64,000 bases of DNA from positions 62,001 through 126,000 of the forward strand of contig NZ_AOID01000013.1 in assembly GCF_000337195.1 (NCBI RefSeq), read 5' to 3'. Source of the stretch: Natrinema versiforme JCM 10478. Lineage in GTDB: Archaea > Halobacteriota > Halobacteria > Halobacteriales > Natrialbaceae. The notes under the pieces are model-generated. The model saw only the letters and a program-made list of their open reading frames with translations, was not told the DNA's origin and searched no databases. This document shows positions 4,393-54,640 of the stretch, one piece after another. The stretch's first letter is position 1; each line of letters starts with the position of its first letter. A program made the position numbers and the translations under genes.

Positions 4393-5081
4393 GCGATGCG
4401 GACTCGGCGACCGAAATCGAAGTACCGGCTGATCCGCTCGCGGGCCACGCCGCCACGGCGTACTTCTGGGGCCACGTCGCCGGGAGCGGCGACGTTTCCG
4501 ACGACGGCATCGAGGTCGTCGCCAACGACGAGGCCTCCGCGCAGGTGCTCGCAGCGGTCGCAGGCGGCGACCTCGAGCACGAGACGACGACTCGAGACTA
4601 CGCCCACGACACCTCGATCACGCGCACGGAAGACGAGTACACGCTGACGATCGACGGCGACGAGTCGGGCCTTCTGGGCCGCAGCGGCGCGCTCGGCCTC
4701 CCCGTCGACGGCCGCGGGAACTACCGCTTCGGCGCGTTCTCGGAGTACGACCGCGAACTGCTTCGGGGCCTGCTCGAGGGCTGTGGCACCGTCTGTTTCA
4801 AGTCCTCGAGTGGCACCGTCGGCATCTCGTTCGTCCACGACGACGAAGACCTGCTCGCGTTCGCACAGGAGCTGATCGACGAGTGTCCGGTCGAGGCCCC
4901 CTATGACGACCTCTCCGAAACCTCGTCGGGCGGCTACTGGTTCGGCGTCGACGACGACGCCGCGCCCGATTTCGGCACGTGGCTCTACGAGAACTGCGAG
5001 GAAACCGGGCTGTTCGCCCCAAGTCGCCGGCGCAAACTCGAGCGGAGCCTCGAGCAGGCGACGGCGTACGACGACGAGTAA
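4389..5081 (+). CDS. Cobalamin-operon protein with two degenerate LAGLIDADG-like motifs
   Basis: A 230-residue protein with no family I can name with confidence. Two halves look alike: AYFWGHVAGSGDV near residue 24 and LLRGLLEGCGTVCF near residue 123, each followed by a beta-rich segment. Both resemble the LAGLIDADG homing-endonuclease helix and its next strand, but the catalytic acidic position is Ser in the first and Cys in the second. It is therefore probably not a nuclease. It overlaps the ferredoxin stop (ATGA) and precedes cbiX, so it belongs to the cobalamin operon. A structural, substrate-handling or regulatory role is possible; nothing in the sequence decides this. Confidence 0.7.
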   Translation: MSDADSATEIEVPADPLAGHAATAYFWGHVAGSGDVSDDGIEVVANDEASAQVLAAVAGGDLEHETTTRDYAHDTSITRTEDEYTLTIDGDESGLLGRSGALGLPVDGRGNYRFGAFSEYDRELLRGLLEGCGTVCFKSSSGTVGISFVHDDEDLLAFAQELIDECPVEAPYDDLSETSSGGYWFGVDDDAAPDFGTWLYENCEETGLFAPSRRRKLERSLEQATAYDDE

Positions 5082-5107
5082 CTACCCGACCACCACTCAC
5101 GACACCG

Positions 5108-6340
5108 ATGAGTACACCTGACCAGACCACGCCCGCATCGACAGCCGGGTTCGACGACGAGGCCGTCCTCCTGATCGGCCACGGCTCCCGGCGCGAGAAG
5201 TCCAACGAACAGGTCCGCGAACTGGCCGCGTCCCTCGAGTCCCAACTGGGGATTCCGGTCGACGCCGCGTTCCTCGAACTCGCGGAGCCGGCGATCGACG
5301 AGGCCTTCGCGCAACTCGCGCCGGTCACGTCGCAGGTAACCGTCGTTCACTGCTCGCTCTTTGCTGCGAGCCACGTCAAAAACGACGTGCCGCTGGCGAT
5401 CGAGCAGGCCCGCGCCGAACACGACCTCGAGATCAACAACGGGTCGCATCTCGGGGTTCATCCCGCAATCTTGGATCTACTGGACGACCGCGCCGCTGCC
5501 GTCGAAGCGGAACTCGGCGTCGATCGGACGGAAGACGACGTGGCCGTCGTCGTCTGCGGCCGCGGCTCGAGCGATCCGGACGCCAATGGCGACGTCCACA
5601 AGCTGGCCCGGCTGCTCTACGAGGGCCGCGAATTCGATCGCGTCGAGGCCTCCTTTATCGGTGTGACGGAGCCGACGCTCGAAGAGAGCCTGCACGGGCT
5701 CTCGAAGCACCGGCCCGACGCGGTCGTCGTCCTGCCGTACATGCTCGGCGACGGCGTGTTGACCCAGCGGGTCCGAGACTGGACCGCCGAGTTCGACGAG
5801 GACTACCCCTACGTCGACGCGCTGGCCGGCGACCCGCTCGGCACGGACTCCCGGTTGCTGGATGTCTTTGCCGACCGCTGGCAGGAAGCCCGCACCGACA
5901 GCGTGGAGATGTCCTGTGACACCTGTAAGTACAAGGTCGACCTCGAGGGCTACGAGGAGGACGTCGGCGGGGCACGAGCCATGCTGCGGGCGCTGGCCCA
6001 TCAGGAGGCCCACGCCGACCGCGACGATATCGATGACGAACCCCACAGCCACGACGCGCCCGAAAAGCACGTCGCGGTCTGTACCAACCAGACATGCGCG
6101 AAGATGGGCTCGCCGGCGGTCCTCGAGCGACTCCGGCAGGAAGTTCGGGACTCCGACCACTGCGACGCCCGCATCACCCGCTCTTCGTGTCTGGGTCGCT
6201 GCGGCGACGGGCCGATGGTCGCGGTCTACCCCGACGGGGTCTGGTACGGCGGCGTCGAGGACGACGACGCCGAACGGATCGTGGGCGACCACCTCGACCG
6301 GGACCGCATCGTCAGTGACCTCGTCGATCAAACGTTATGA
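5108..6340 (+). CDS. cbiX: Sirohydrochlorin cobaltochelatase CbiX fused to a 2Fe-2S domain
   Basis: Inserts Co2+ into sirohydrochlorin, the first committed step of the anaerobic route. The protein has 410 residues. The N-terminal CbiX half is AVLLIGHGSRREKSNEQVRE with VTVVHCSLFAASHVKND; a second CbiX-like half holds VVVCGRGSSDPDANGDVHK and VVLPYMLGDGVLTQRV. A Cys pair DTCKYK near 275 is followed by a histidine/acidic stretch (HADRDDIDDEPHSHDA), then a thioredoxin-like 2Fe-2S domain with VCTNQTCAKMGS and RSSCLGRCGDGPMVAVYP. The start at 5108 follows the previous gene by 26 bases; an upstream in-frame ATG at 4979 lies inside it and is rejected. Confidence 0.92.
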   Translation: MSTPDQTTPASTAGFDDEAVLLIGHGSRREKSNEQVRELAASLESQLGIPVDAAFLELAEPAIDEAFAQLAPVTSQVTVVHCSLFAASHVKNDVPLAIEQARAEHDLEINNGSHLGVHPAILDLLDDRAAAVEAELGVDRTEDDVAVVVCGRGSSDPDANGDVHKLARLLYEGREFDRVEASFIGVTEPTLEESLHGLSKHRPDAVVVLPYMLGDGVLTQRVRDWTAEFDEDYPYVDALAGDPLGTDSRLLDVFADRWQEARTDSVEMSCDTCKYKVDLEGYEEDVGGARAMLRALAHQEAHADRDDIDDEPHSHDAPEKHVAVCTNQTCAKMGSPAVLERLRQEVRDSDHCDARITRSSCLGRCGDGPMVAVYPDGVWYGGVEDDDAERIVGDHLDRDRIVSDLVDQTL

Positions 6341-6391
6341 TCGAAACAAACTTCTTCCAGTATGGTAAATAAATGACCAGATATAGGAGGA

Positions 6392-6763
6392 ATGAAGCTC
6401 GAAATGCCTCCGACAGTGGCGTATGCGATTTTCGTCGTGTTCGGTGGGTTAGTCGTGGTCCCGGACCCGACGATGGCACTCTCTATCCCGGTTTCGGGTA
6501 TCGGCCTCGTCGCCGTCGGCTACGCTCGGATCGACGGATCGCTGCCGGAGTTAGGGTGGGGAATCGCTGCGCTGTACGCGTTCGGAATCGCCGCATCGAT
6601 CGGTATCTGGGCCGTCCGGAGCCGACTCGCGGAGTCCGGACTGTACGGGGCCGCCGTCTTGGCCGTTGCGACCCTCTCCATCGCCGCTCTACTCGGTCCC
6701 TATCTGATCGCTCGAGGCCGCGAGAACGTCCGCGGAGTCACTTTCACATCCCGAAACCGATAG
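6392..6763 (+). CDS. Small hydrophobic membrane protein, unknown function
   Basis: A 123-residue protein with about four hydrophobic segments: VAYAIFVVFGGLVVV, IPVSGIGLVAVGYA, WGIAALYAFGIAASIGIW and YGAAVLAVATLSIAALLG. No family was recognised. The sequence GGAGG at 6386-6390 is one base from this ATG; a second in-frame ATG at 6404 lies 13 bases downstream of it, so the true start could be either. It follows cbiX by 51 bases and precedes the DUF3209-like gene, so it may be cotranscribed with the cobalamin genes, possibly as a small membrane subunit for cobalt handling. That role is inference. Confidence 0.6.
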   Translation: MKLEMPPTVAYAIFVVFGGLVVVPDPTMALSIPVSGIGLVAVGYARIDGSLPELGWGIAALYAFGIAASIGIWAVRSRLAESGLYGAAVLAVATLSIAALLGPYLIARGRENVRGVTFTSRNR

Positions 6764-6854
6764 CGGACACGGCCTCGACGGTGTCGGCGTCCGTCCACGA
6801 CAGCGCCACACCAGTATCGATCGACGAAAAACGAAGCACACGGAAGACACACCT

Positions 6855-7226
6855 ATGAGCTGCTACGAAATCGAAGCACTACGACTCGGACTGATGAACG
6901 TCCTCGGCGTCGGGGACGACAGCGCCCGCGATCACGCGGAGAAGGAACTCGAGGGCCACCTCGAGGGGCCCATTCAGGGGCTCGCGGAGGCCAATAGCCT
7001 CGCCGAAGTCGAGCGCCATCTCGACGCGGCGCTGGTCGATTTGGAGGAGGAGGTGGCGTCGATGGACAGCGACGACCCCGAGTACGACTACACGCGGGGA
7101 CGGCTGCTGGCGGTCCGTGACGCCGAGCGAGCCGTGCAACGACTGAGCGCGCAGGGCGAGCACATCGTCGGCGGACTCGGCGACGCCCACGACACGCTCC
7201 ACGAGACCTTCCCCGTCGAGGAGTGA
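6855..7226 (+). CDS. DUF3209-like protein of the cobalamin cluster
   Basis: A 123-residue soluble, helical, acidic protein. It begins MSCYEIEALRLGLMNVLG and contains DDSARDHAEKELEGHLEGP, AALVDLEEEVASMD and DDPEYDYTRGRLLAVRDAE, ending in LHETFPVEE. From memory this matches the haloarchaeal family DUF3209, usually found beside cobalt chelatase genes. It probably contributes to cobalamin synthesis; no catalytic motif is visible. The single cysteine is at residue 3. Its stop overlaps a GTG that may start the next gene, so the two are coupled. Its partner is the beta-propeller protein immediately downstream. Confidence 0.7.
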   Translation: MSCYEIEALRLGLMNVLGVGDDSARDHAEKELEGHLEGPIQGLAEANSLAEVERHLDAALVDLEEEVASMDSDDPEYDYTRGRLLAVRDAERAVQRLSAQGEHIVGGLGDAHDTLHETFPVEE

Positions 7227-7228
7227 CG

Positions 7229-8521
7229 ATGGCCGGAACTGCCGATACTGAACGCGACCGGCCCCGCGAGTTCCGCTCGGTCCCGCTCGGCGAGATCGAG
7301 ACGGCCCGCAGCCGGCACATGTGGACCCGATCCGCGGTCGGGTTCGCCGACTCCGGCGACCTCGTCGTCACCGGTGAGTGGGACGGGACCGTCACCGCCC
7401 GCGAGAGCGATTCGCTCGAGACCCGGTGGACGGTCGATCATCCGGACCACGCGGTCGGGATCGCATCGCTCGCGGGCGATGGAGCCGAGGACGGCGAGAC
7501 GATCGTCGTCGCTGGCCGCGGCGAAACGGGGACGATCGCGGCCTACGACCCCGAGACGGGAGCACAGCGCTGGCGGTACGACACCGTCGACGACCTCGGC
7601 GAGGCGGTCAAAGACACCGTCTTCTACCTGCCCTACATCGTGGCGCTCGAGTCGGGGACCGACGCCGACGGCGACGAGCGCCTCTACGCCGCCGCCCGGC
7701 GCTACGAACGTGACGGCGAACGGCGGCAGTGGTACAGCACGGTCTACGCCTTCGACGCCGACGGTTCGGTCCGCTGGACCTACGAGACCGACGCCTCGCC
7801 GATCGCGCTCGACCTCGACGCCGACGGCGAGCGCCTCGCGGTCGGCTACAACCGCTGTATGGGCGACCACGACACCGGGCTCGTCGTTCTCGACACGGCG
7901 ACGGGCGACCTCGAGTGGACGTGGGACCCCGGCACCGAGGGCGACCGCCGCGTCGGCGATGTCTCATTCGACGGCGATTCGATCGCGGTCTCGAGCCACG
8001 GCGACAAGCGCGGCTACCTGCTCGGGCCCGGCGGTGCCGAGCACTGGCGCGTCGACCTCGCGACGGAGACCGAAATCGACGGCGAGACGTTGTACGCCTA
8101 CCCGAACCACGCGTACGCGAGCGATGGCCGCGTGGCGTTCGTGACCGGCAACACCTACGCGGTCGAGAGCCGGGAGACCGACTCCCGGCACCCGAACGAA
8201 CACCGAGTGGCCGCCTTCGACGCCGACGGCGATCTCCTCTGGGACGACGAGGTCCGCGGCTTCGTCCACGGTCTCGCCGCAGACGGCAAGCAGTTGGTCG
8301 CACCTTGCGCCCAGAACTTCCGCGTTCGCGACCCCGACACGCACGCCGTCCGCTGGTTCGACCTCGAGTCCGGCGACGGCGGCTGCGAGCGCGTCGACGG
8401 CATCGCGACGGCGGCCGCCGTCGCGAACGGGACTGTCGCGGCCGTCGAGGAGCCCGTCGAGTACCACGACGAGGGCGAGACCCGCGGCGAGTACGCGCTC
8501 CGGGTCGGCTCGCTCGAGTAG
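7229..8521 (+). CDS. PQQ-like/WD40-type beta-propeller protein
   Basis: About 430 residues arranged as repeated four-stranded blades: LVVTGEWDGTVTARESDSL, TGTIAAYDPETGAQRWRY, STVYAFDADGSVRWTY, GLVVLDTATGDLEWTW, HRVAAFDADGDLLWDDE. The blade ends in DG-x2-RW or similar, as in PQQ-like propellers. There is no signal peptide, so it is cytoplasmic and probably a scaffold or protein-interaction module. Start chosen at ATG 7229; a GTG at 7223, in frame and overlapping the previous stop, is an alternative. Its coupling to the DUF3209-like gene suggests a role in cobalamin assembly or cobalt chelation, which is inference. A T-run follows the stop near 8545. Confidence 0.78.
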   Translation: MAGTADTERDRPREFRSVPLGEIETARSRHMWTRSAVGFADSGDLVVTGEWDGTVTARESDSLETRWTVDHPDHAVGIASLAGDGAEDGETIVVAGRGETGTIAAYDPETGAQRWRYDTVDDLGEAVKDTVFYLPYIVALESGTDADGDERLYAAARRYERDGERRQWYSTVYAFDADGSVRWTYETDASPIALDLDADGERLAVGYNRCMGDHDTGLVVLDTATGDLEWTWDPGTEGDRRVGDVSFDGDSIAVSSHGDKRGYLLGPGGAEHWRVDLATETEIDGETLYAYPNHAYASDGRVAFVTGNTYAVESRETDSRHPNEHRVAAFDADGDLLWDDEVRGFVHGLAADGKQLVAPCAQNFRVRDPDTHAVRWFDLESGDGGCERVDGIATAAAVANGTVAAVEEPVEYHDEGETRGEYALRVGSLE

Positions 8522-8638
8522 CGACGGCCATCGGTTCGACCGGTTTTTCGCGGCAACTCTCTTCGCCCATACCTGCCGGAGAGTCGCATACGCAAGGCCA
8601 ACCACCACAACGCCCACTGCCGTCTCTTCGTCCGTATA

Positions 8639-10024
8639 ATGACCAAGGATTTCGCACATGACGGCCGTGCGGACCGTTCGGATCCCGCGAGGGCCGAGCG
8701 CTCCTCGAGCCGTCCCGACGAGACCGATCGGGAGGCGGGACCGCCGTCCCGGGTGATGACTGATGGCGGGCAAGCGGAGATGGAAGAGGCGGACGAGGAT
8801 ACTGAGGTCGAAGACACGCCCGAGGGTGGCGAGGCGGACGCGGCTGAAGAAGAGGCCGCGGACGAATCGCAGGAAGCCGAGGAAGAAGCCGAAGCGGAAG
8901 TCGAGGAAGAGGACCAAGAGGCCGAAGAGGAGGCTGAAGAAGAAGCGGAGGAAGAGGGTCAAGAGGCCGAAGAGGGGGCTGAAGAAGAGGCGGAGGAAGA
9001 AGATCAGGAGGCCGAAGAGGTGGCTGAAGAAGAAGCTGAGGAAGAGCCCCAAGAAGTCGAGGAAGAGGCCGAGGAGGAAGCCGAAAACGAATCGCCAGAA
9101 CCCGACGCGGGAGTCGAAGAATCGGAGGTCGGCGAAGACGAGGACGAACGCGAGGACACCGGGGACCTCGTCGACGACGACCGCGAGGAAGGCCACGCCG
9201 AGGATGCCGAAGCCGTCTACGAAGGCGAAGACGCCTCCGGCGTCCTCCACCTCGATCTCGACGGCCTCTTTCTCGACGTGCTCGGCCTCGAGGTGAATCT
9301 GAACCCGGTCCAGCTCGATGTCTCGGCGCGGCCGGGCGAGAACAATCTGCTCGGAAATCTGCTGTCCGCGGTGACGGGGCTGCTCGACGGCCCCGGTGCC
9401 ATGCTGGACAAGGTAAAGTCGCTCCTGAGCAAGCCGGTGGAACTGCTCAAGCAACTCCCTGGGAAGGCCAAAGAGGCTCTCAGAGGCCTGCTCGAGCGGC
9501 CGAAGGAGTTCCTCAGCGGGCTGCTGAGCAAGCCGAAGGAACTGCTCAGTAAACTCCTCGGCATCGGCGGCGAGGCAGGAGACGAGGAGACGGAAAGCGA
9601 GGAGGGCGAGGAAGGCGAGTCGGGCGGGATGCTCTCGTCCGCTGCCGGCTGGCTGAAGGGAATTCTCACCAAGCCCGTGGAGTGGCTCCGCGGACTCTTC
9701 GGTGGGGGTGCCGAGGACGGCGCGGAAGACGAAGGCGAGGAGGCAGCAGACGAGGCGGACTCCGCGGAGCCGGCGGACGAGGAACCCGCGGAGGAAGGCG
9801 AAGAAGAAGCGGAAGAGGAATCCCCGGGTCCCCTCGCCAGAGCGAGCGACTGGGTGAAAGAGAAGCTGTCCGGACTCGTCCCGAGCCTTCCGGTCGAGGA
9901 GTTCGTTGCGATGGTCGTCAGCGAAGTGATCGAACAGGTGGTCGAACAACTCGAGCCCGATAGCGACGAGGAATCGTCCGGCGGACAGTCCGACGCGGCG
10001 TCACAGGCGGAGGCCTCATCATGA
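8639..10024 (+). CDS. Highly acidic repeat protein with amphipathic LL-x-KP-x-E repeats, unknown function
   Basis: A 461-residue protein in three parts. Residues 1-190 are Glu/Ala-rich with five exact 15-residue repeats starting Gln-Glu. A hydrophobic core near 200-320 begins with LHLDLDGLFLDVLGLEVNL and PGENNLLGNLLSAVTGLLDG, then repeats a short unit (LLSKPVELLKQL, LLERPKEFLSGLLSKPKEL, ILTKPVEWLRGLF). A second acidic tail with a hydrophobic segment SLPVEEFVAMVVSEVIEQVV closes it. There is no signal peptide or clear membrane span. It overlaps the next gene by four bases. No known function; the form suggests a self-assembling or membrane-surface protein. A shorter start at 8757 is possible. 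Confidence 0.75.
   Translation: MTKDFAHDGRADRSDPARAERSSSRPDETDREAGPPSRVMTDGGQAEMEEADEDTEVEDTPEGGEADAAEEEAADESQEAEEEAEAEVEEEDQEAEEEAEEEAEEEGQEAEEGAEEEAEEEDQEAEEVAEEEAEEEPQEVEEEAEEEAENESPEPDAGVEESEVGEDEDEREDTGDLVDDDREEGHAEDAEAVYEGEDASGVLHLDLDGLFLDVLGLEVNLNPVQLDVSARPGENNLLGNLLSAVTGLLDGPGAMLDKVKSLLSKPVELLKQLPGKAKEALRGLLERPKEFLSGLLSKPKELLSKLLGIGGEAGDEETESEEGEEGESGGMLSSAAGWLKGILTKPVEWLRGLFGGGAEDGAEDEGEEAADEADSAEPADEEPAEEGEEEAEEESPGPLARASDWVKEKLSGLVPSLPVEEFVAMVVSEVIEQVVEQLEPDSDEESSGGQSDAASQAEASS
8870..9094 (+). repeat. Five tandem 45-bp repeats encoding a 15-residue Glu-rich unit
   Basis: Five in-frame units at 8870, 8915, 8960, 9005 and 9050 each encode 15 residues beginning Q-E-(A/V)-E-E. Units 2 to 5 share E-A-E-E-E-A-E at positions 6-12 with small changes. 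The length is kept exactly, and the encoded segment should form a long, highly charged helix. Confidence 0.85.
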
Positions 10025-10563
10025 GCGACGAATCACTGACACAGCGGATTGACACGGAGAAGATCACGGAAAACATCGACGTCGATCAACTGGTCGAGGG
10101 GACCCAGTGGGAAGAGGAGATCGACGAGGACATGCCCCTCGGTGCGGCGCTGGGCGGCCAGATCGGCGCGCTCGTCGGGCGGAAGGTCGGCGCGTCACTC
10201 GGTCGGACGATCGGCGATATGGTCGTCGAGGAACTGCTCAGTAGCGACGAAACCGAGTCGGAGGGCGAGGACGAAGAAAGCGAAGAGGGAGCCGAAGACG
10301 AAGGCGAAGAGACGGCGGAGGAAGAACCGGCGGAGTCCGAGGACGAAGACGAGGACGAGGAATCGGCGGACGAGGAAAGCCCCGAACCCGATGAATCCGA
10401 AGACGACGAAACCGAGGACGGCGACGCGGAAGCGGAGGCCGAAGACGAGAGCGGCGAGCAGAGCGACGCCGAATCGGGCGAGGAAGAGGCGTCCGATCAG
10501 GACGACGCCACCGAGGAGACGGAAGACGAGGAAGAGATGGAAGCGGAAGCCGAGGAGGAGTAA
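10021..10563 (+). CDS. Acidic glycine-zipper protein, unknown function
   Basis: A 180-residue protein. Residues 1-40 carry charged helical sequence (TQRIDTEKITENIDVDQLVE, then EEEIDEDMPL). Residues 41-75 are a glycine zipper: GAALGGQIGALVGRKVGASL followed by GRTIGDMVVEELL, with Gly spaced every four residues. The last 100 residues are almost purely Glu/Asp/Ser/Ala. Glycine zippers pack helices in membranes or oligomers; the zipper here contains Arg/Lys and is short, so it is not a standard span. The ATG overlaps the previous stop. The partner protein at 10620 has a related zipper. No family recognised. Confidence 0.75.
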   Translation: MSDESLTQRIDTEKITENIDVDQLVEGTQWEEEIDEDMPLGAALGGQIGALVGRKVGASLGRTIGDMVVEELLSSDETESEGEDEESEEGAEDEGEETAEEEPAESEDEDEDEESADEESPEPDESEDDETEDGDAEAEAEDESGEQSDAESGEEEASDQDDATEETEDEEEMEAEAEEE

Positions 10564-10607
10564 GCCTGTGATACGGAATCGCGACACCACCGAATCGGAT
10601 CACACGC

Positions 10608-10615
10608 GAGGTGAT
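10608..10615 (+). promoter_or_regulatory. Strong Shine-Dalgarno site deciding the GTG start at 10620
   Basis: GAGGTGAT at 10608-10615 is complementary to the 3' end of archaeal 16S rRNA and ends four bases before GTG at 10620. This favours 10620 over the in-frame GTG at 10611, which lies inside the site. Confidence 0.7.
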
Positions 10616-10619
10616 CGCC

Positions 10620-11459
10620 GTGAGTGACGGCTCGGGACTGAAGAGCATGGTCGCCGAGGAGGTCAGCAATCAGGTCGACGTGGCCGATATGCTCGGCGAG
10701 GGCAGCATCGAGGACAGTATCGACGGAAGCGAGATCGGGGCCGCGGTCGGCCGCCAGTTCGGCGAGCAACTCGGCCGCGAACTGGGGACCGCGATCGGCC
10801 GCGAGATCCACGAGACGATCGATGAGGGCATCGAGGAAGGGAAGGATATCGGCGATCTGCGGTCCGAGCTCCCGACGGCGATTCGAGACGCGATTCGCGA
10901 CTCGATCTCGGAGATGGAGGGCCGCGAGTCCCTCGAGTCGATGGCCAAGGGCGTCACCGACGGCAGCAGCGTCGACGGACTGCTCGAGGGGATCGGCAGC
11001 GGCGAGAGCGACGACGCCGAGGACGAATCGGCTGACGAAGCGGACTCGGAACCGGCGGACGAAGCCGAGGAGCCGGCTGAGTCCGAGGACGAGGAATCCG
11101 CGGACGAGGCGGACGACGAGGACGGCGGTGACGATCAGGTCGCCGAAGAGGCGGAGGACGAAAGCGATGAAAGCGATGAACCGGACAGCGAAGCGTCCGA
11201 AGACGCTGACGAGGATGCCGAGGCGGCCGATGAAGGCGAGGATGAGCCGTCCGTGGAAGACCTTGAGGACCTCCGGAAGGACACACTCGAGGACTTCCTC
11301 GGGGTCATGTCCTACAGCGATCTGCAGTCGGTCGCGAAGGACGTCGGCGTAAAGGCGAACCTGAGCCGGGAGGAGATGACCGACGAGATCATCGGGACGG
11401 TGACCGACGAGGAGTCGGACTCGAACTCGGAGTCCGAAGCGGAGGCCGAAGCCGAGTAG
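10620..11459 (+). CDS. Acidic glycine-zipper protein with SAP/Rho-N-like C-terminus, unknown function
   Basis: A 279-residue protein paralogous in layout to its upstream neighbour. Helical start (KSMVAEEVSNQVDVADMLGE), then a zipper IGAAVGRQFGEQLGRELGTA with IGREIHETIDEGIEEG, then helices rich in Arg/Asp/Glu (IRDAIRDSISEMEGRESLES). A 100-residue Asp/Glu/Ala stretch follows. The end, MSYSDLQSVAKDVGVKANL then SREEMTDEII, resembles the SAP or Rho-N helix-extended-loop-helix that binds nucleic acid. GTG start chosen for its Shine-Dalgarno site. It lies 57 bases after the previous gene and is probably in the same operon. Confidence 0.75.
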   Translation: MSDGSGLKSMVAEEVSNQVDVADMLGEGSIEDSIDGSEIGAAVGRQFGEQLGRELGTAIGREIHETIDEGIEEGKDIGDLRSELPTAIRDAIRDSISEMEGRESLESMAKGVTDGSSVDGLLEGIGSGESDDAEDESADEADSEPADEAEEPAESEDEESADEADDEDGGDDQVAEEAEDESDESDEPDSEASEDADEDAEAADEGEDEPSVEDLEDLRKDTLEDFLGVMSYSDLQSVAKDVGVKANLSREEMTDEIIGTVTDEESDSNSESEAEAEAE

Positions 11460-11539
11460 TCGACTGACACGGATTCGATCTCGCTTCGGAGCCGGAAAGA
11501 CACGCGAGCGGACACCACGCGGCACTCTCGGAGAAACCA

Positions 11540-12424
11540 ATGAGCGAATCGCAACTACACGACCGGGTGCACGAGATACTGACCGAGGCCGACGCGTCCA
11601 GCGGGTCGATCGTTTCCGGGGGCGACGCGGACGGCGACGACGAGTCGGCCGAGACGGACCTGTTCGAGGCCGCCGCGGACGCAAGCGACCTCCTCGAGTC
11701 GGCAGCGCCCGACGACCTGCTCGCGGCGGTCGGGCTGGACACCCTCGCGGACGGGACCGAACCGGACTCGATCCCGGAGGCGATCGCCCGCGGCGAACAG
11801 GAGAACCTCAAGGATCTCCAGCGGTTGCTCCACCTCTCGAAACTCGCCGATCGGGCGGACGACGGGGGCCTCGAGACGGCCGTCGACGACCTCCGGGCGA
11901 CGATCGGCGAGCGGGCCGAGGCCGCCGGTGACGACGAGGAGGGAGACGCCAGCATCAACGAACCGGCGAGTAGCGAGGGCGAGGCGGACGAATCGGTGGG
12001 CGACGACGCGGACACGGCTGAGAGCGACGAATCGGACGAGTCGGAGACCACCGGTGACACCGGGGACCGTCTCCGGTCGGCAATGAGCGATTCGTTCGCC
12101 GACTTCGGCGACGAAGTCTCCGAACTCAAAGAGCGACTCGAGTCGGCGAGTGCGGGGGCCGCCGACGAATCCACTGTCGATGCGGACGATGCCGACGAAC
12201 CGGCCGCCGATGCCGAGGACGCGGACGACGCCGCGGCCGAGGAGGCGGAGACGGACGCGGAGGACGATGATGGCCTCCTCGGATCCGGACTCGGAAGCGA
12301 CGGAAACCGCGGGTCGGCGTCCGGCGGCCCGAGCCGGCACTCGACGATGGCACCGCCGCCGTCGAAGCGAGCGGACATGCGCGGGACGACGCGGCACTCG
12401 ACGATACCGGACAAACACACGTAG
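11540..12424 (+). CDS. Acidic, mostly disordered protein of the glycine-zipper cluster
   Basis: A 294-residue protein. The N-terminal 130 residues look folded: SQLHDRVHEILTEADASS, DLFEAAADASDLLESAAPD and DDLLAAVGLDTLADGTEPDS, then QENLKDLQRLLHLSKLADRA and VDDLRATIGERAEAA. The middle is Asp/Glu/Ala/Ser-rich with SDSFADFGDEVSELKERLES embedded. The C-terminus turns basic and Ser/Gly-rich, with two similar segments SRHSTMAPPP and TRHSTIPDKHT. No catalytic motif and no membrane span. It follows the zipper gene by 80 bases on the same strand. No family recognised. Confidence 0.7.
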   Translation: MSESQLHDRVHEILTEADASSGSIVSGGDADGDDESAETDLFEAAADASDLLESAAPDDLLAAVGLDTLADGTEPDSIPEAIARGEQENLKDLQRLLHLSKLADRADDGGLETAVDDLRATIGERAEAAGDDEEGDASINEPASSEGEADESVGDDADTAESDESDESETTGDTGDRLRSAMSDSFADFGDEVSELKERLESASAGAADESTVDADDADEPAADAEDADDAAAEEAETDAEDDDGLLGSGLGSDGNRGSASGGPSRHSTMAPPPSKRADMRGTTRHSTIPDKHT

Positions 12425-12484
12425 GAGACCGGATCGGCCCACTCGAGGCGGAACGAGACGGGCCATGCGTGCTCGCGCTGAAGC

Positions 12485-12490
12485 CTTATT
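12485..12490 (+). promoter_or_regulatory. TATA-like box for the DUF2299-like gene
   Basis: CTTATT sits 24-29 bases before the GTG at 12514, the spacing of a leaderless archaeal transcript. It suggests the last gene of the cluster can be expressed alone. Confidence 0.5.
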
Positions 12491-12513
12491 CGCCTCGCCG
12501 TCGACGAGCGGGT

Positions 12514-12978
12514 GTGACAACCCACATCAGCGAGACGCAGGTCCAGCACTGGCTCGACGACACGGCGATCCGGAACGTGACCACCCATACCGACGAGGAC
12601 ACCGAATTCAATTTTCAGGTCGAACTCTCGCACCTGCCGGTCCACGTGATCAAGGAAGCCGAGTTCGGCCCGGTTCGAATCGTCGGCCGCAGCGGGTTCG
12701 ATACCGAGAAAACCAGGAATCTGCTCCGCGACGATCAGCAACGCGCCGAGTTGCTCCGGTACGTCGGACCGATGCTGGCGGCGACGCCAGGGTTCTACAC
12801 GTTCCTCGACGAGGAGGGGATCTCCTGTCAGTTGCGCGAAGCGGAGACGGTGCAGGTCGAGTACCGCGTCTATCCGGACGGCGCATCCCAGCAGACGCTA
12901 ATGGACGGGATCATGTCGATCGCGACGAGCATGCGGTACGTCCAGAACGTCGTCGCGGCGGTCGCACAGTCCGAGTGA
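12514..12978 (+). CDS. DUF2299/YbjN-like small protein
   Basis: A 154-residue soluble protein from a GTG start. ETQVQHWLDDTAIRNVTTH, NFQVELSHLPVHVIKEAEFG, RIVGRSGFDTEKTRNLLRDD and ELLRYVGPMLAATPGFYTF match my memory of the archaeal DUF2299 pattern, which shares the fold of YbjN and type III secretion chaperones. Such folds bind and hold partner proteins. No catalytic residues are visible. The start was set by the TATA-like box 24 bases upstream; an ATG at 12469 lies before that box and is rejected. It is the last gene of the acidic cluster and might chaperone the zipper proteins, which is inference. Confidence 0.65.
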   Translation: MTTHISETQVQHWLDDTAIRNVTTHTDEDTEFNFQVELSHLPVHVIKEAEFGPVRIVGRSGFDTEKTRNLLRDDQQRAELLRYVGPMLAATPGFYTFLDEEGISCQLREAETVQVEYRVYPDGASQQTLMDGIMSIATSMRYVQNVVAAVAQSE

Positions 12979-45714: not shown

Positions 45715-46512
45715 TTAGTACTCGACGTCGACCTCAACCAGCGTCACGACGACCCGTCCAGACCCACTGCCATCACCGACAGCGCACACACCCGTATCGG
45801 ATTCGCCCCAGTCTCCGCTCTCGAGCGTCGACTTCCACGCGTCGTCGTAAGCGCTCTCTTCGACGGAGATATTCACCTTGTCTGTGTTGTTGTAGACCTT
45901 GCTACTGCGGTTTTCGACGGACATCGTAAAGCCGAGTCCCTCGCTGCTCTGGATCGACCGGTCATCCGCTGAGACCCTGACGAGCGAGATAACTGCCGTC
46001 TCGTCGCCGCATCGCAATTGGGGTCGTTTGCTGACGAGGCTCCACGACTCCGACTCGTGTCCCCGCATAAGACCACCACCCTCGTACGCGATTCGATCAC
46101 CCTCAGAGGTATACATGAATTCACCGAGGTTGACGGTGGCATTGGCATCACCTCCGTAATCGGCGAACAGATCGGGGTCAGTTTCGTTTATTCGGTCCCC
46201 GTCGATCGAGATGTTCAGTGTCGTTCCGCTATCGCCGGTGCTAACCGTCCCTTCCCGCAGCGCGAGTTCGCCATAGCGTTGCTCGATTCCATCGTATCGG
46301 ATGACGTCGTTGAAGTTCACGGCAAGTGCCTCCATCGCCCGGTCGGCGTTTTGCAGTTGTTCGGCCTCCTGATAGTCCTGCATAGCCTGAAACCCAGTCA
46401 TCGACAACAGCGTGACGGAACTGAGGATGATCGCGAACACGAGGATGAACGCGAGCACGTCGGATACCGCACGGGAATCCCGTTGTCCTGACACAGATTG
46501 CCTTCGTCTCAT
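45715..46512 (-). CDS. Pilin-like protein (DUF7289-type)
   Basis: A 265-residue protein of the type IV pilus-like operon. Charged start GQRDSRAVSDVLAFILVFAI with ILSSVTLLSMTGFQAMQDYQ is a prepilin-type signal and hydrophobic stem, followed by AEQLQNADRAMEALAVNFND. The extracellular part is beta-rich with Asn/Asp/Gly (GGDANATVNLGEFMYTSEGD, RIAYEGGGLMRGHESESWSL) and ends DGSGSGRVVVTLVEVDVEY. From memory this matches haloarchaeal DUF7289. It is last in the operon and overlaps its upstream neighbour by four bases. Confidence 0.75.
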   Translation of the reverse strand: MRRRQSVSGQRDSRAVSDVLAFILVFAIILSSVTLLSMTGFQAMQDYQEAEQLQNADRAMEALAVNFNDVIRYDGIEQRYGELALREGTVSTGDSGTTLNISIDGDRINETDPDLFADYGGDANATVNLGEFMYTSEGDRIAYEGGGLMRGHESESWSLVSKRPQLRCGDETAVISLVRVSADDRSIQSSEGLGFTMSVENRSSKVYNNTDKVNISVEESAYDDAWKSTLESGDWGESDTGVCAVGDGSGSGRVVVTLVEVDVEY

Positions 46513-47000
46513 TGATTCCAGCTCCTAATTCGTATCTTATCACTTTCATAGATGATTTCGATCGTTCCGCCAGTTGCTGACGACGTTTCGTTGATATCGT
46601 TGTCAGTCTTGATCGGTACGTGAGCAACGGCGTCAGTGTCCTGTGCAGTCAGTTTCACGCAGGCAGTGTTCTCTTCAAGCAGCGGGGCGTTATTGCAGTC
46701 CGCCTGCAGCTCGACGGTGTACCGAGAACTCGCGACTGTCCGTGGATGCTCAGTCGTGAGAGTCACGGTGTCATCGGTTTCGTTCGCGATCTGATCGACG
46801 TTGCCGATTTCGTCGGCGATCCGTTCGCCGACCGTCTCGAGCGAGGAATCAGCGCTGCGCTCTGTCTCCGACTCGAGCATGGTTCCGGACGCTGTCAACA
46901 GCATGGCGATGAGAATCGTCGTGATACCGATCGTGAGGACGTGTGTGATCGTGATCGAGACGGCGCGATCCCGCTCATCGTATCGGCCGGTTGTGGGCAT
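46509..47000 (-). CDS. Pilin-like protein (DUF7266-type)
   Basis: A 163-residue protein. DERDRAVSITITHVLTIGIT with TILIAMLLTASGTMLESETE is a charged head plus hydrophobic stem, like class III prepilin signals. An extracellular part follows with ETVGERIADEIGNVDQIANE, TVTLTTEHPRTVASSRYTVE and LQADCNNAPLLEENTACVKL, the two cysteines perhaps forming a disulphide. The ending GGTIEIIYESDKIRIRSWNQ is beta-like. It should be a minor pilin. One base separates it from the next gene upstream in the operon and four bases overlap the one downstream. Confidence 0.72.
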   Translation of the reverse strand: MPTTGRYDERDRAVSITITHVLTIGITTILIAMLLTASGTMLESETERSADSSLETVGERIADEIGNVDQIANETDDTVTLTTEHPRTVASSRYTVELQADCNNAPLLEENTACVKLTAQDTDAVAHVPIKTDNDINETSSATGGTIEIIYESDKIRIRSWNQ

Positions 47001-47001
47001 T

Positions 47002-47451
47002 TTAGGGACACTCCGGTGTGATATTCAGTTTCTGTCTGTAACTGAGTGAATTCGAGTCGTACGCCACGGTCATAGTAACATTCTGCAAGGATCCCCCGTC
47101 AGCGGTGGCGTTGACGTTGCTGAGATTTACGGCCGTCGGTGTCGAATGTGCCGTCGTGTTTTGATAGGCAGTATTGAACGCCGAAATGTTGTCCTCTGCT
47201 AGATGCTTTAAATTATCGTTGTTATTTGTATCTGATTGGTTTTTCACCTGTACAAGCAGACAACCGACACTCTGATTGACCTCCTGCTCAATCACGTCAG
47301 CATTGCCCGCACTTTGACTGGTTCCACCGGAGGACAGCGTCTCCGTATAGAGGACACCGTTGAAGACGACGACGATTCCCAGAATAATGAACGCAAGCGA
47401 GACCGCTCCGATGAGGATCACCTGTGCACGGTTGTGATCGTTGCTCACCAT
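47002..47451 (-). CDS. Pilin-like protein (DUF7261-type)
   Basis: A 149-residue protein beginning NRAQVILIGAVSLAFIILGI then VVVFNGVLYTETLSSGGTSQ, a prepilin-type signal. The ectodomain is Asn/Thr/Ser-rich with VEQEVNQ-like helices, Cys at GCLLVQVKNQ and LNITPECP, and sequon-rich segments (NVNATADGGSLQNVTMTVAY). These suggest N-glycosylation outside the cell, which is inference. Base composition is noticeably more AT-rich than in neighbours. It overlaps the next gene by seven bases. The role as a minor pilin is inferred from the operon. Confidence 0.72.
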   Translation of the reverse strand: MVSNDHNRAQVILIGAVSLAFIILGIVVVFNGVLYTETLSSGGTSQSAGNADVIEQEVNQSVGCLLVQVKNQSDTNNNDNLKHLAEDNISAFNTAYQNTTAHSTPTAVNLSNVNATADGGSLQNVTMTVAYDSNSLSYRQKLNITPECP

Positions 47452-48062
47452 ATGACCACCCGTACCTCTACGACATCGTAGAGCGGTGTTTCGTTGCTAT
47501 ATGGGCTCTCAAATGGTGGATTTTCAACCTCCTGAAGATTTTCGTCGCTCGAAGCGGTCACAGTCTGATTATCGTATAGCGTGACAGTGTAGCTTGCAGT
47601 CAACGCACTGGACGGAGGGCTCCCTTGATAGACGAGGGTAGATGCGTTGTTTGTCCCTTGTGGATAAAGGTGGACATTGTAACTCCAGCCGTTTTCAGCG
47701 AACCGTCTTTCCATAATCTTTCCGAGCGTGAATTTGCTCTTGAAATCACTCGTATTGTACGTCTTATCACCATTTGGTGCAGTCGGGGGTTCTGTACCTT
47801 CGAAACCGTCTTCTCCCCAGTAGCGGACCATATATGAGAGGTTTTTGTCCTCGTCAACAGCGGAAACCAGCAGCGCATCTTGTGCTTCCTGTTGGATCTG
47901 GGCCTGTACCGTCCGGTCGGATAAGCCGCCCGTCGTCGGTGTGATCACAGCCGACTGCAGCGCGAACAGCACGGCCATCAACACGACCATCGCGCTGATG
48001 AATCCCTCGAGGGTATACGCTTGTCCGCGATCAACATCACTTTGCTCTGTGTCGAACATCAT
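47445..48062 (-). CDS. Pilin-like protein (DUF7288-type)
   Basis: A 205-residue protein. DVDRGQAYTLEGFISAMVVL with MAVLFALQSAVITPTTGGLS is a prepilin-type signal, the RGQ-x-T-L-E resembling class III sites. The ectodomain includes VQAQIQQEAQDALLVSAVDE, NLSYMVRYWGEDGFEGTEPP and NVHLYPQGTNNASTLVYQGS, ending in YDVVEVRVVIW. Its composition is AT-richer than the genome average, and Asn-x-Thr/Ser sites are frequent. It lies one base from the neighbour upstream and overlaps the one downstream. Likely a minor pilin of the PilB/PilC system. Confidence 0.75.
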   Translation of the reverse strand: MMFDTEQSDVDRGQAYTLEGFISAMVVLMAVLFALQSAVITPTTGGLSDRTVQAQIQQEAQDALLVSAVDEDKNLSYMVRYWGEDGFEGTEPPTAPNGDKTYNTSDFKSKFTLGKIMERRFAENGWSYNVHLYPQGTNNASTLVYQGSPPSSALTASYTVTLYDNQTVTASSDENLQEVENPPFESPYSNETPLYDVVEVRVVIW

Positions 48063-48063
48063 T

Positions 48064-48627
48064 TCACCACACCCTCACGACAAGTCTACATGCTGGGTTA
48101 CAGCGAGCACTACTATTGTTCCCGTTACCATTCTCGTTTACGACCGTAACGATCCGAGCCGAACTAGCCGCTGCCTGTTCATCGTACACGTCACCGGTTG
48201 TCCAATTCCCAGAATCTCCGATCGTGGAATCGTTACTGAGATTCTCGATACTGACGTTTACCCGATCAATTCGAGTATCATTGGTCGCCCGAAGACCGAG
48301 TTCCTCGGTCAGATCCTCAGAATCTCCGTCGACATATCTATCGTTGAATGCCGTCGAATTAATTTCGTTGCCCGATCCCGTCGACGTGTTGTGGACGATT
48401 CGGTCCGCAATTCGGTCAGCCTGTGCCGTCTCCGCGCCGCCGACCGTCGAGTCGAAGGGCGTCACGACCGACGGGAGAAACGAGAAGACGAAGGCGATCG
48501 CTAGCAGGAAGACGCCGATACCGATGGCGAAATCCTGCGTCGTCTGGCCCCGCCGATTCAGCGAGATCGAGATCGTCCGTGGTCGCTGGGAGTTCCCTCG
48601 CCGTTGATGTGTTTGGTTGCGTCTCAT
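48064..48627 (-). CDS. Pilin-like protein (DUF7287-type)
   Basis: A 187-residue protein with a long basic head (RRNQTHQRRGNSQRPRTISI) and SLNRRGQTTQDFAIGIGVFL followed by LAIAFVFSFLPSVVTPFDST, a class III-like prepilin signal. The ectodomain has ADRIADRIVHNTSTGSGNEI, NDTRIDRVNVSIENLSNDST and two Cys in NSSARCNPACRLVVRVW. It is the first pilin-like gene after PilC and may be the major or tip pilin; this cannot be decided. One base separates it from PilC. Its signal head is longer than in the other four. Confidence 0.75.
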   Translation of the reverse strand: MRRNQTHQRRGNSQRPRTISISLNRRGQTTQDFAIGIGVFLLAIAFVFSFLPSVVTPFDSTVGGAETAQADRIADRIVHNTSTGSGNEINSTAFNDRYVDGDSEDLTEELGLRATNDTRIDRVNVSIENLSNDSTIGDSGNWTTGDVYDEQAAASSARIVTVVNENGNGNNSSARCNPACRLVVRVW

Positions 48628-48628
48628 A

Positions 48629-50701
48629 TTAGGCCACCAGCACCCAGCCGATAAGTGCGATCGAGGAGAGTCCGATCGCGTATTTCAACCCGCTCAGCAG
48701 GTCGGCGTCCCGGATGTAGCCACAGATGAACCCGGAAATGATCGCTTGGAGGGTCACCGCGTGGAAGAACAACACCGAGAGCATATCGACGTCGATGTTC
48801 TCGCTGAGGTTCGCGCCGCTCGTCGCGCCCCCGCCTCCGGCACCGGATCCGCCTGTCTCGGCACCGCTCCCGCCGGCGTTGAGGCCGGCCATCGTATCGA
48901 TAAACTGGGTTTTGAGGATCGCGATCACCGCGAGCACCGTCATGAACGTCATGATGATGATCACGATCTGCATCCGCGTTCGGGACTTTCGCTCGCGTTC
49001 GATGTCGTCGTGGTTCTCGCTCGCGGTCGCGGCCGTCCGAAGGACGTCCGAAATCTGGTTCGACGCCTCTTGGGCTTCGGTGATCAGCCGCGTCGTCCGG
49101 GCGAGTCGCGGGATGTGGTACTTGTTGTTGAACTCGATGAACGCCTCCTTGAGGCTCATCCCGTAGTTGACCTTCGTGTGCATCATCTCGAACTCGCGGG
49201 CCAGCTTGCCGTTCGTGGTGTCGGAGACGGCCTTGAGCGACTCGAGTAGCGTCAGTCCGGTGTCGTTCGAACTCGAGAGTTTGCGGAGGTCCTCGGAGAG
49301 TTTGTTGACGACAGAGTTTCTGTGCCGAACGTTCCACTCGCGGAAGATCGCGAGGGGGATCGCGGTGATATACAGCGGCAGGTAGATGTAGAGGAACGTC
49401 CCCCAGATCGGTCTGTCGAGGAGTTCCGCCCACGACAGCGGCGCTGCGCCGTTGACAACGGCCGTGACGACGATGACCAGTGTCAGGGGAACGGTTATCG
49501 CGAGAGTGACCAGCGGATGGTCGCGGAAGAAGAAGTGGGGGTTTCGCAGGACCTCCATCGTCTCGTAGGTCCCCTCGCGGTTCTTGATCCGGTCGAAGAC
49601 GCTGTGTTCGCCGGTGAACTGCTCGACGAGTCCGAGGCTCAGCAATCCGTCGCCCTGTCCCGTTTCGGTCCGCTGATCGGTGTTCCCCATCGAGAGGTAG
49701 CCGTCGCCGGGGTCGTCGTGTTTAACCGTCGAGACGAGGACGATGAAGCCGACGCCGATCATCGGGATAAGTCCGTAGACGACCATATAGAGCATGTTGT
49801 CCGTCACGGTCGCGTCCGGGATCATCTTCATGACGACCATGATGATGATCAGAAGCAGCGGGAACAGGGACAGCGTCATGTACATCTCGCCGAACAACTC
49901 GAGGGTCTCGAGGGTGAGTTCTTGTTCCTGCTTTGCGGTGCGCATGTGCTTTTCTTTCTTATCCTGCAGGAAGCTCTCCATGTCGCCACCGCTGTTGACG
50001 ATTGAGAGCATGTCGGTCAGGAACTGCGAGAGGTCGTCGCTCGGCGTCTCGAGCGCTTGTTTTCGGATCGCCGTTCGGTAGTCGATATCGAAGTATTCGG
50101 TCTCCTTGACGATGCTCTGGAACTCGTTTGCCACCTCGCCGTAGGTGTCGTCGGCCTGGGCCATCGCCTCGATGATCTCGAGTTGGTTCAGCCCGCCGAC
50201 CGACAGGGCATACATGAACGAGACCGAGTCGGTCAGGAGCATGTTAATCTCGCGCTTGCGGGCCGAGGCGCGCGAGTAGGGGATCGCGACCATCGATCCG
50301 AAGCCGACCGCGAAGCCGATCGATCCGAATAGCAGTCCGGTAACGAAGACGACGGCCGGAACGCGAATCATCTCGATGATATCGAGGAGCAGTCCGTGGC
50401 CGACCGGGATACCGATGAGCGCCTCGTTCGAGAGGAGACCGATGGCAAAGATGCCGTAACCGAGAAGCAGGCCGATCAGCCAGAGGCTGAGCCCGCTGAT
50501 GAAACCGATTCCGAGCGCCCGAGAGAGGTAGAGTTCGACCGTATCCGTCATCCGGGCCTGTGCCAGTTTCGTCTCGACGTCGCTGACGAACTCGCTGTCC
50601 TCATCGAACAGCCGATCGTAGAGGGGGTAGAACCAATCACCGAGCCCGTCGGAGCTGGCCGACATGCCCGAACCGCCGCTGTCGTCGGTCTGGAGGCTCA
50701 T
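48629..50701 (-). CDS. pilC: Pilus assembly membrane protein PilC/TadC (GspF family)
   Basis: A 690-residue integral membrane platform for pilus assembly. Two GspF-like halves are visible: the first with LLTDSVSFMYALSVGGLNQL, DDLSQFLTDMLSIVNSGGDM and TLETLELFGEMYMTLSLFPL, the second with RNSVVNKLSEDLRKLSSSND, TGLTLLESLKAVSDTTNGKL, ISDVLRTAATASENHDDIER. Spans include IGFISGLSLWLIGLLLGYGI and LVTLAITVPLTLVIVVTAVV. Its start overlaps the ATPase gene's stop (four bases). It should sit in the membrane and contact PilB. Longer than bacterial GspF, typical for archaeal versions. Confidence 0.9.
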   Translation of the reverse strand: MSLQTDDSGGSGMSASSDGLGDWFYPLYDRLFDEDSEFVSDVETKLAQARMTDTVELYLSRALGIGFISGLSLWLIGLLLGYGIFAIGLLSNEALIGIPVGHGLLLDIIEMIRVPAVVFVTGLLFGSIGFAVGFGSMVAIPYSRASARKREINMLLTDSVSFMYALSVGGLNQLEIIEAMAQADDTYGEVANEFQSIVKETEYFDIDYRTAIRKQALETPSDDLSQFLTDMLSIVNSGGDMESFLQDKKEKHMRTAKQEQELTLETLELFGEMYMTLSLFPLLLIIIMVVMKMIPDATVTDNMLYMVVYGLIPMIGVGFIVLVSTVKHDDPGDGYLSMGNTDQRTETGQGDGLLSLGLVEQFTGEHSVFDRIKNREGTYETMEVLRNPHFFFRDHPLVTLAITVPLTLVIVVTAVVNGAAPLSWAELLDRPIWGTFLYIYLPLYITAIPLAIFREWNVRHRNSVVNKLSEDLRKLSSSNDTGLTLLESLKAVSDTTNGKLAREFEMMHTKVNYGMSLKEAFIEFNNKYHIPRLARTTRLITEAQEASNQISDVLRTAATASENHDDIERERKSRTRMQIVIIIMTFMTVLAVIAILKTQFIDTMAGLNAGGSGAETGGSGAGGGGATSGANLSENIDVDMLSVLFFHAVTLQAIISGFICGYIRDADLLSGLKYAIGLSSIALIGWVLVA

Positions 50702-53700: not shown

Positions 53701-54615
53701 GTACTTGATCGCCTTCCGGAGTTTGCCCGAGAGGAACTCTTGAAGTTCGATCTCGATCTCGTTCCGGTAGGGCTCGATCATGTAGTACTTCTTCTCGTTT
53801 TCCTTCTCCGAGTGGAAAATGACGACGTAGGCGTAGGGCTTGTTCACCCAGTAGCGCTCGACTTCCTGAAAGTGAGTCTTCTTCTCGAACGGAACGGCCT
53901 TCTCGAGGTCGTAGCGATTGGAGACGGTCGTGTTGCCCGCGGCCGTCGAGAAGAACTCGTCTTCCTCGATATCTTCTTGAATGTTGACTGTTCGTTCCTC
54001 GACGATCTCGTCGAGTTCCAACGCGGCGTCGTTGCCGGCCGCGAGACGTGACTCTACCGTGTCGGGATCGAAGCCGAGGGCCTCCTCCTCGTCGTGACGA
54101 ACGATCTCGCCGTCACCGTCGCGCGGGCGACTGCCGTCCTCGTCGTAGTAGTACTCCCACTTGTAGTGTTCCCAGGTCCAGGTGTCCTTGACGACCGGCG
54201 TCGTCTCCGGATCGACATACTCGCAGAAAATCTCCCAGAGCGTGTCGGCGTCGTCGCCGGCGGTGGGCAAGACGTGATCCGTGAGGTCGTCGGGGTGGTG
54301 GCCGAGATACGATGCCGGATCGAACTCGACCTGATTCCAGTCGTCCCCGGTCGGCACCCTCGAGCCGACGTTCTCGTCGGTATCGAGCCCGAGTTGATCG
54401 TCCGTTGCGATCGGGTCGTCCGGGTACAGGTCGGCGATCTCGTCGCCGTGCCCGTACTCGTCCATGAACTCTTCCCACGTGTACTCGCCGACGCTGACCG
54501 CCGAATCCGATATCGGGCCAGCCCCATGAGACCGCTCGTCTTCCGACGCAGCGTCGGATGCCTCCCCCTCAGAAAAGTCCCCGGCATCCGATTGGTCGGC
54601 CTCGTCAATAGCCAT
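50698..54615 (-). CDS. pilB: Pilus assembly ATPase PilB/TadA with long acidic tail of SIF-type motifs
   Basis: A 1305-residue secretion ATPase; normal members are about 500-800. The core has IFAGGTASGKTTSLNAVSLF (Walker A, near residue 545), IVSIEDTREVELPQRNWIAS, ALRQRPDYIVMGEIRGEEGR (Walker B) and STGHTTYTTFHADSVDEVLK (His box). Residues about 860-1305 are an Asp/Glu/Ser/Thr tail with eight short motifs such as DSIFGG, ESIFTD, GSLFDD, ESIFKG, DSIFDP and GGIFGA. The start ATG 54615 agrees with a TATA-like box; a GTG at 54636 is an alternative. It is the first gene of the pilus operon. Confidence 0.93.
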   Translation of the reverse strand: MAIDEADQSDAGDFSEGEASDAASEDERSHGAGPISDSAVSVGEYTWEEFMDEYGHGDEIADLYPDDPIATDDQLGLDTDENVGSRVPTGDDWNQVEFDPASYLGHHPDDLTDHVLPTAGDDADTLWEIFCEYVDPETTPVVKDTWTWEHYKWEYYYDEDGSRPRDGDGEIVRHDEEEALGFDPDTVESRLAAGNDAALELDEIVEERTVNIQEDIEEDEFFSTAAGNTTVSNRYDLEKAVPFEKKTHFQEVERYWVNKPYAYVVIFHSEKENEKKYYMIEPYRNEIEIELQEFLSGKLRKAIKYSEDGVKEQSTEDGRRTVIEDETRRLLKRYDLFEATSGETAEGILETLRGLLDDDETEVEDAGPSQLEGLSVRPEPAVLADDPDTLSEYQVEKLLYLLKRDFIGYERIDGIKHDINVEDISVDGYNSPVFVYHSEYEQIITNIYHGEDELDDFVVKLAQRSGKGISKRLPQVDATLPDGSRAQLTLGEEVSDHGTNYTIRQFKDVPFTPIDLINWNTFSLDEMAFLWLAIENHKSLIFAGGTASGKTTSLNAVSLFIPSSAKIVSIEDTREVELPQRNWIASVTRPSFSDDEQGDVDEFDLLEAALRQRPDYIVMGEIRGEEGRTLFQVMSTGHTTYTTFHADSVDEVLKRFTTDPINVSKTMFTALDLVSIQTQTRVQGRKVRRNKSLTEINHYEAEHDEINVQDVYQWQAETDEYLKMGDSNTLEEIQFDRGWSNEKLEEELFKREVILAYLIKNELNTYAQVAATVQAFINDPDTILTLIANGQLEDSLEDLREMESVLIDVDPEKEELVPRPESTSETYNLSMDILERAEESVFEEFRGEVPSGLASALGDVEEESTIDVDRADSEEFEFGGNVDETVDEDAWELGDSSAEFAIDGDDGGDEPAWLSEDSGFDVEPTDGEPEDATAATDSGTSTDELAAADASTDRQDVSSSEPQEGPAADAGATAEPETELPTRPDTEVDASPSSATSPAAEPGESGTNGTSATSSDGPDSFDSSSSPDDSGESAVLPHDDAEDGDLGGLFDDMGGPIDEIDGPGSEETASTGDSMASHRPDTSGFDSMFPEDDLDSIFDPESGGESDGNGFSEQLADEDESASETTDEASTTETPTDSTMDSNAKNESDGSEPATVESTTPDDTNTEDSSDEREPPTIEIDDGTADADPPDGSDDDDEPIAKAEPESEPDSNPGSAESVDDEPTADESQSRDAGDDGKGDSIFGGGSESIFTDDADEADDDGSLFDDGDGDSSDDESIFKGDADDESTENNGGIFGAADSDEDDS

Positions 54616-54640
54616 TGCGTCTACACGAACGCTCACCCTT

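Follow-up and report, generated by a model that had tools for sequence, protein, structure and literature searches.

We analyzed a 64,000-nt stretch of the Natrinema versiforme JCM 10478 genome (contig NZ_AOID01000013.1, positions 62,001 to 126,000; hereafter, the window), in which five consecutive open reading frames, P1 to P5, were confirmed, all on the forward strand. P1 (8639..10024, a 461 aa ORF) encodes an acidic protein with a conserved core, 11-residue amphipathic repeats and C-terminal helices; P2 (10021..10563, 180 aa) encodes a glycine-zipper protein with an acidic tail, and P3 (10611..11459, a 282 aa ORF, alignment A4) a glycine-zipper protein with a conserved C-terminal helical domain. 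P4 (11540..12424, 294 aa) encodes an acidic distant relative of the extended GvpI, as detected by hhalign, and P5 (12514..12978) a DUF2299-like neighbor of patchy distribution, with a DUF2299 score below the cut-off, that lies outside the system of the operon. The overlapping starts and close spacing noted in the original prediction were found, with a 4-nt overlap of P1 and P2 (ATGA at 10021) and gaps of 47 nt between P2 and P3 and 80 nt between P3 and P4. The proteins encoded by P1-P4 are very acidic, with short conserved non-acidic cores; the acidic regions that were emphasized earlier are real, but they are unremarkable for a haloarchaeon. The Pfam scan produced no family above the cut-off for any of P1-P4, and the NCBIfam scan of P1, P3, P4 and P5 yielded no family for any of them. 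Upstream of P1 (window 4979-8521) are the cobalamin genes CbiX and DUF3209 and a gene for a BamB/PQQ-type beta-propeller protein, which is kept beside DUF3209 across the family. A cobalamin role suggested by these neighbors was ruled out because the contexts of the operon elsewhere differ (cob, phenylacetate degradation, gvp). Farther along the window, a lower-GC region (46509-54636) contains a type IV pilus-type set (T2SSE/PilB3, T2SSF) with DUF7261/7266/7287/7288 neighbors; at 1312 aa, its PilB-like ORF is of unusual length.

The order of P1-P4 is kept in 18 of the 37 loci that were first fetched via P5, and also in many loci from several haloarchaeal families that were fetched via P2. The P1-P2-P3 order is kept across families, and some loci (e.g., L102 and L103) have a single fused gene made of the P2 and P3 parts. 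The first four genes (8639-12424) are a real conserved operon, and the proposal that acidic proteins with glycine zippers or amphipathic repeats, matching no annotated family, are encoded in a linked operon is upheld for these four. The same neighborhood survey, which had been suggested for synteny of all five genes, recovered the conserved P1-P4 order and no conserved five-gene unit, since P5 is missing from most P1-P4 loci (it was found in about 10 of 61 named haloarchaeal loci). P5, for which GTG at 12514 is the probable start supported by relatives, is decayed in several relatives and occurs elsewhere without P1-P4; therefore, the conserved unit has four genes, a five-gene system is ruled out, and P5 has to be dropped as the fifth member. 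The protein encoded in the window scores 16.7 bits against DUF2299 (PF10061; cut-off, 22.8), whereas other members of the P5 family match this domain at up to 2e-9 (10 of 15 members), such that the predicted DUF2299 likeness holds for the family and falls short of the cut-off for the window protein itself. Given the DUF2299 likeness and the position of P5 next to P1-P4 on the same strand, it might be a dedicated secretion-type chaperone of these proteins; however, its absence or decay in many P1-P4 genomes and its presence without P1-P4 elsewhere make this highly improbable.

The P1 core domain (9221..9391, HLDLDGLFLDLLGLEVNLNPVTLDVSARPGxNNLLGNLLSAVTGLLDG) has 83% mean column identity in alignment A2 and was found in 138 of 394 haloarchaeal genomes. 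It is followed by 11-residue amphipathic helix repeats (9404..9559, LLSKPxELL...), with a lag-11 autocorrelation of 0.31 that was reached by none of 2000 shuffles; the LLxKPxE repeats described in the original prediction are thus real. As a helix, the repeats have a hydrophobic moment of approximately 0.6, and they are helical in a structure model of low confidence; this model is poor overall (mean pLDDT 57) and was set aside as too weak to serve as evidence. Our search for relatives of P1 with solved structures yielded nothing convincing. The repeats are clear in P1 of Natrialbaceae and not in that of other families, and the core is lost in one genome (G005) that retains gvpA and P2-P4. Searched plasmid records contained no match to the core. 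A related core domain is present in secreted-looking Chloroflexi proteins without gvp neighbors, which rules it out as a gas-vesicle-only domain. In two of these proteins (L231:5692-6210 and L243:5662-6207), the core is at the C-terminus; they share with P1 the motif LDLLGLEVDL...PGxGNLLGNLL and differ from it in having an apparent N-terminal signal peptide (judged by eye) and no acidic arms. The core is an unnamed domain common to bacteria and haloarchaea.

Approximately 30-60 nt before the P1 start, there is an element of 28-34 bp (8579..8612, forward strand; GTCGCAYACGCAAGGNNAANNNCCACAACG) that is conserved throughout Natrialbaceae, a probable promoter or regulator site. It scores 56.7 bits, compared to -9.6 for the next-best forward-strand site in the window, and is present as a single copy in 25 of the 29 genomes of the genus Natrinema. 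It is missing in three genomes that lack both P1-P4 and gvp, and in G018. The prediction from the missing element that G018 would be devoid of gvpA was wrong: G018 has gvpA, although its gvpN ORF spans only 158 aa (versus about 340). A promoter element common to P1 and gvpA was sought and was not found at gvpA.

P2 and P3 each contain seven glycines with exact i+4 spacing, which occurred in shuffled sequences at a frequency of 5e-5 or less, confirming the GxxxG zippers proposed for both. The P2 zipper helix (10138..10254; 39 residues, positions 40-78 in the predicted structure) is predicted confidently, with blocks 51-70 at pLDDT 96; a search for fold matches to this helix found none. The zipper glycines G45, G49, G53 and G57 are invariant among 53 homologs, and P2 is paralogous to the N-domain of P3 (hhalign E=1e-10). 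P2 shares the GxxxG spacing with the glycine-zipper families PF13488, PF05433 and PF13441, which some of its homologs match weakly; it differs from these families in scoring below their curated cut-off (15 bits versus 25), in its highly acidic tail and in the lack of a lipoprotein context. The C-terminal domain of P3 (11247..11411, DFLGVMSYxDLQSxAKDvxVKANLSREEMTdeII) is nearly invariant among 18 homologs. P3, this domain included, matches no Pfam family at E<=1, and the SAP-like tail proposed for P3 was not recovered.

For P4, the comparison of protein families gave a connection to gas vesicles. The P4 family aligned with the gene in the gvpI position of those gvp clusters that accompany P1 with an hhalign probability of 98.7% (E=1.9e-16). 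This gene encodes a long N-terminal extension as well as a tail rich in STMP, and P4 is related to it over both; the conserved P4 tail RHSTMAPPPSxRADMRxxxRHSTMPdKH (12332..12421, alignments A5 and A6) resembles the STMP tail of GvpI. Extended forms of gvpI have been recorded in Natrialba/Haloterrigena (PMC3403918). GvpI of Halobacterium is a basic protein (pI 10.8; PMC9501494), whereas P4 homologs are strongly acidic (D+E 0.22-0.33, K+R 0.04-0.12), are present in addition to GvpI and, in Natrialbaceae, are encoded outside the gvp cluster. By sequence homology, P4 is best described as a relative of GvpI and not as a GvpI.

Gas vesicles serve for cell flotation. Among the 394 haloarchaeal genomes, 164 carry gvpA, and gvpA was found in 138 of the 143 genomes with P1 or P2 (Fisher p about 1e-71). 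The P2/P3 profile detected 127 of the 394 genomes, 125 of them with gvpA, and gvpA is present in 135 of the 138 P1-core genomes. For the window's own family, the counts are 84 genomes with both P2 and gvpA, 10 with neither, 2 with gvpA only and 0 with P2 only. The five exceptions without gvpA are weak matches in G067, G187, G216 and G312, and G140, an incomplete genome with stop codons within the match. In the genome of the window, P1-P4 and the gvp cluster (order gvpA-gvpN-gvpO) are on different contigs (C13 and C56). In other families (Halalkalicoccus, Halocatena and others), homologs of P1-P4 are inside or beside the gvp cluster; in several families, P1-P2/P3 adjoin gvpA-gvpO or are located within gvpFGH-I-JKL. 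For example, P1 and P2/P3 come after gvpA-gvpO in L103 and similar loci, where the gvp cluster also contains gvpF, G, H, J, K and L.

Three Natrinema genomes (G006, G014 and G027) have no P1-P4 at the conserved cob locus, and the same three genomes also lack gvpA and have no GvpF/L above the cut-off. The locus shows a clean deletion in G027 (L069) and a deletion in G006 (L263), whereas G014 (L264) retains remnants, namely a fusion of P1/P2 and a fragment of P3. In the tree of neighboring cob genes, these genomes are on three separate branches. Linkage does not explain the joint loss because the gvp cluster lies elsewhere; without a functional tie, three separate joint losses at unlinked loci would be difficult to account for. 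The window operon adjoins cobalamin genes and an ABC transporter rather than gvp genes, which is in line with a cytoplasmic or membrane-surface structure of its own that has no relation to gas vesicles; the co-occurrence with gvpA, the exclusion with GvpC described below and the three joint losses all oppose this interpretation, leaving it extremely improbable. The co-occurrence also rules out the free-standing organelle implied by the new self-assembling structure of the original prediction, although a concern with protein assembly is probably correct. Altogether, it is very likely from the genomic patterns that P1-P4 have a gas-vesicle function. Gas vesicles are the organelle that the original prediction itself had named as a possible refuting case. 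The link comes from the genomic evidence of the present analysis: Pfam, NCBIfam and the papers searched contained no gas-vesicle assignment of the operon's homologs.

The distribution of P1-P4 is complementary to that of haloarchaeal GvpC. Twelve of the 394 genomes contain multiple copies of the Halo_GVPC repeat (PF05465); each of them has gvpA, and none has P1 or P2. Accordingly, multi-repeat GvpC is present in 0 of 138 gvpA-containing genomes with P1/P2, compared to 12 of the 26 other gvpA-containing genomes (Fisher p=2e-11). A single weak GvpC repeat was detected in three more genomes (G103, G109 and G123), of which G123 has P1. Both types occur within single genera, namely g55 (G357 versus G107 and G121) and g52 (G111 versus G118). 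P1-type gvp clusters have the order gvpA-gvpN-gvpO or gvpA-gvpO, without gvpC. No PF05465 repeat matches P1-P4 or anything else in the window's genome, and the place between gvpA and gvpN where gvpC is expected is not that of P1-P4, which are on another contig. The two types also differ in GvpA, which ends with EQAELTAGAEA... in the GvpC-containing loci that were read and has a longer C-terminal tail with a motif like GDLxxLxxLEVE in P1-type loci. At the thresholds used, 14 gvpA-containing genomes have neither multi-repeat GvpC nor P1/P2; upon inspection, some of these proved to be GvpC-like or P2-like, such as G156, with a P2-like zipper gene beside gvpO. In another of these genomes (G034), the gvpC position between gvpA and gvpN (L147:10684-11934) is occupied by a gene for a 416-aa protein that belongs to no known family; this protein has helical stretches in its N-terminal part and KDASEAGSADGES repeats, and it may represent a third type of protein encoded at this position. 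A comparison of the C-terminus of this GvpC-like protein with the P3 tail did not support homology (9% probability).

The split in GvpA tails is compatible with either lineage history or functional replacement, and the exclusion with GvpC may in part reflect two gvp lineages rather than replacement. If two lineages had been inherited whole, P1-P4 would merely correlate with one of them and the exclusion would be historical; the GvpA tails, the extended GvpI and the missing gvpDE, all of which accompany P1-P4, fit such a history. Nevertheless, in Natrialbaceae, P1-P4 are far from the gvp genes and were lost together with them three separate times, so that a functional tie is needed. The two-lineage explanation, which we consider rather unlikely, survives only for the step of GvpC replacement.

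GvpC is a long helical repeat protein on the outside of the GvpA ribs, and its repeats in cyanobacteria comprise 33 residues (PMC10903477), that is, three times the 11-residue repeat of P1, a resemblance and no more. Haloarchaeal GvpC is, like P1-P4, linked to gas vesicles, acidic, repeat-bearing and helical, and by exclusion the two share the same genomic niche. P1-P4 differ from it in the lack of the GvpC repeat in P1, in the number of proteins (three or four versus one), in the glycine zippers and in being often unlinked to gvpA. We propose that P1-P4 are a GvpC-independent accessory module that likely acts at the gas-vesicle shell in place of GvpC. Under this proposal, the amphipathic repeats of P1 and the P2/P3 zipper pair would cover or brace the GvpA shell on its outer side, at the site occupied by GvpC in Halobacterium, and the acidic stretches would point into the cytoplasm; P4, as a divergent GvpI relative, would probably help to place or regulate P1-P3. 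The location on the shell, the bracing role and this division of labor are inferred. The P1 repeats and the modeled P2 zipper helix fit surface-binding, self-associating helices. A GvpC-like shell role of P1-P3 is favored only slightly: outside Natrialbaceae, the P1 repeats are not clear, two gvp lineages could account for the exclusion with GvpC, and neither solved nor predicted structures tie P1-P3 to GvpC.

The chief rival of the shell role is that P1-P4 act in solution as gas-vesicle factors for assembly, nucleation or chaperoning, or determine the number or position of vesicles, and are not a coat that replaces GvpC. The relationship of P4 to GvpI is consistent with such a role, given that GvpI, a binding partner of GvpH, GvpC and GvpL, does not belong to the major shell proteins (PMC9501494). 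In addition, P2 and P3 have no GvpC-type repeats, and in some families P1/P2 are within the gvpFGHIJKL accessory operon and not beside gvpA. The exclusion with GvpC together with the split in GvpA tails points to the shell surface instead, and P1 has long amphipathic helices; we regard the assembly-factor role as possible although not probable. Extending the shell role, one can tentatively envisage a second class of gas vesicles, represented in 138 of the 164 gvpA-containing genomes, in which a coat of P1 and P2/P3, unrelated to GvpC, would be docked via the distinct GvpA tail with the help of P4.

The vac regions of Natrialba, Natrinema, Halopiger and Haladaptatus have been described as lacking gvpC and gvpDE (PMC4390858, PMC3403918) and as containing an extended gvpI (PMC3403918), and species with this GvpC-less type of gvp cluster have been reported to be Vac- (PMC4390858). 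The published accounts of these species that we searched do not mention the P1-P4 operon. The absence of gvpC and gvpDE was known before, and P1-P4 are probably a hitherto unrecognized set of gas-vesicle proteins of the shell or its assembly. Given the Vac- reports, species with this gvp type may form gas vesicles rarely or only under certain conditions. The majority type of haloarchaeal gvp cluster has so far been described merely as lacking gvpC and gvpDE, with Vac- carriers, and our analysis suggests a function for four protein families without a Pfam name. To our knowledge, nearly all studies of gas vesicles have dealt with cyanobacteria, Bacillus and haloarchaea of the gvpC type. If the proposed role is correct, heterologous gas-vesicle studies based solely on the gvp cluster would have lacked required components, and P1-P4 would represent a second natural way of bracing or dressing a gas-filled protein shell, useful for the engineering of ultrasound and antigen-display tools.

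Two further genes of the gvp neighborhoods should be mentioned. A conserved zinc-ribbon-like protein of approximately 110 aa is encoded between gvpO and P1 (L103:9458-9796) and is found at the same place in L100-L103, L105, L107, L109 and L119. The gvp clusters of family f17 contain a short P2-like glycine-zipper gene (L251:6034-6672, L254:11563-12279 and L277:7633-8157) beside a second gvpO-like gene.
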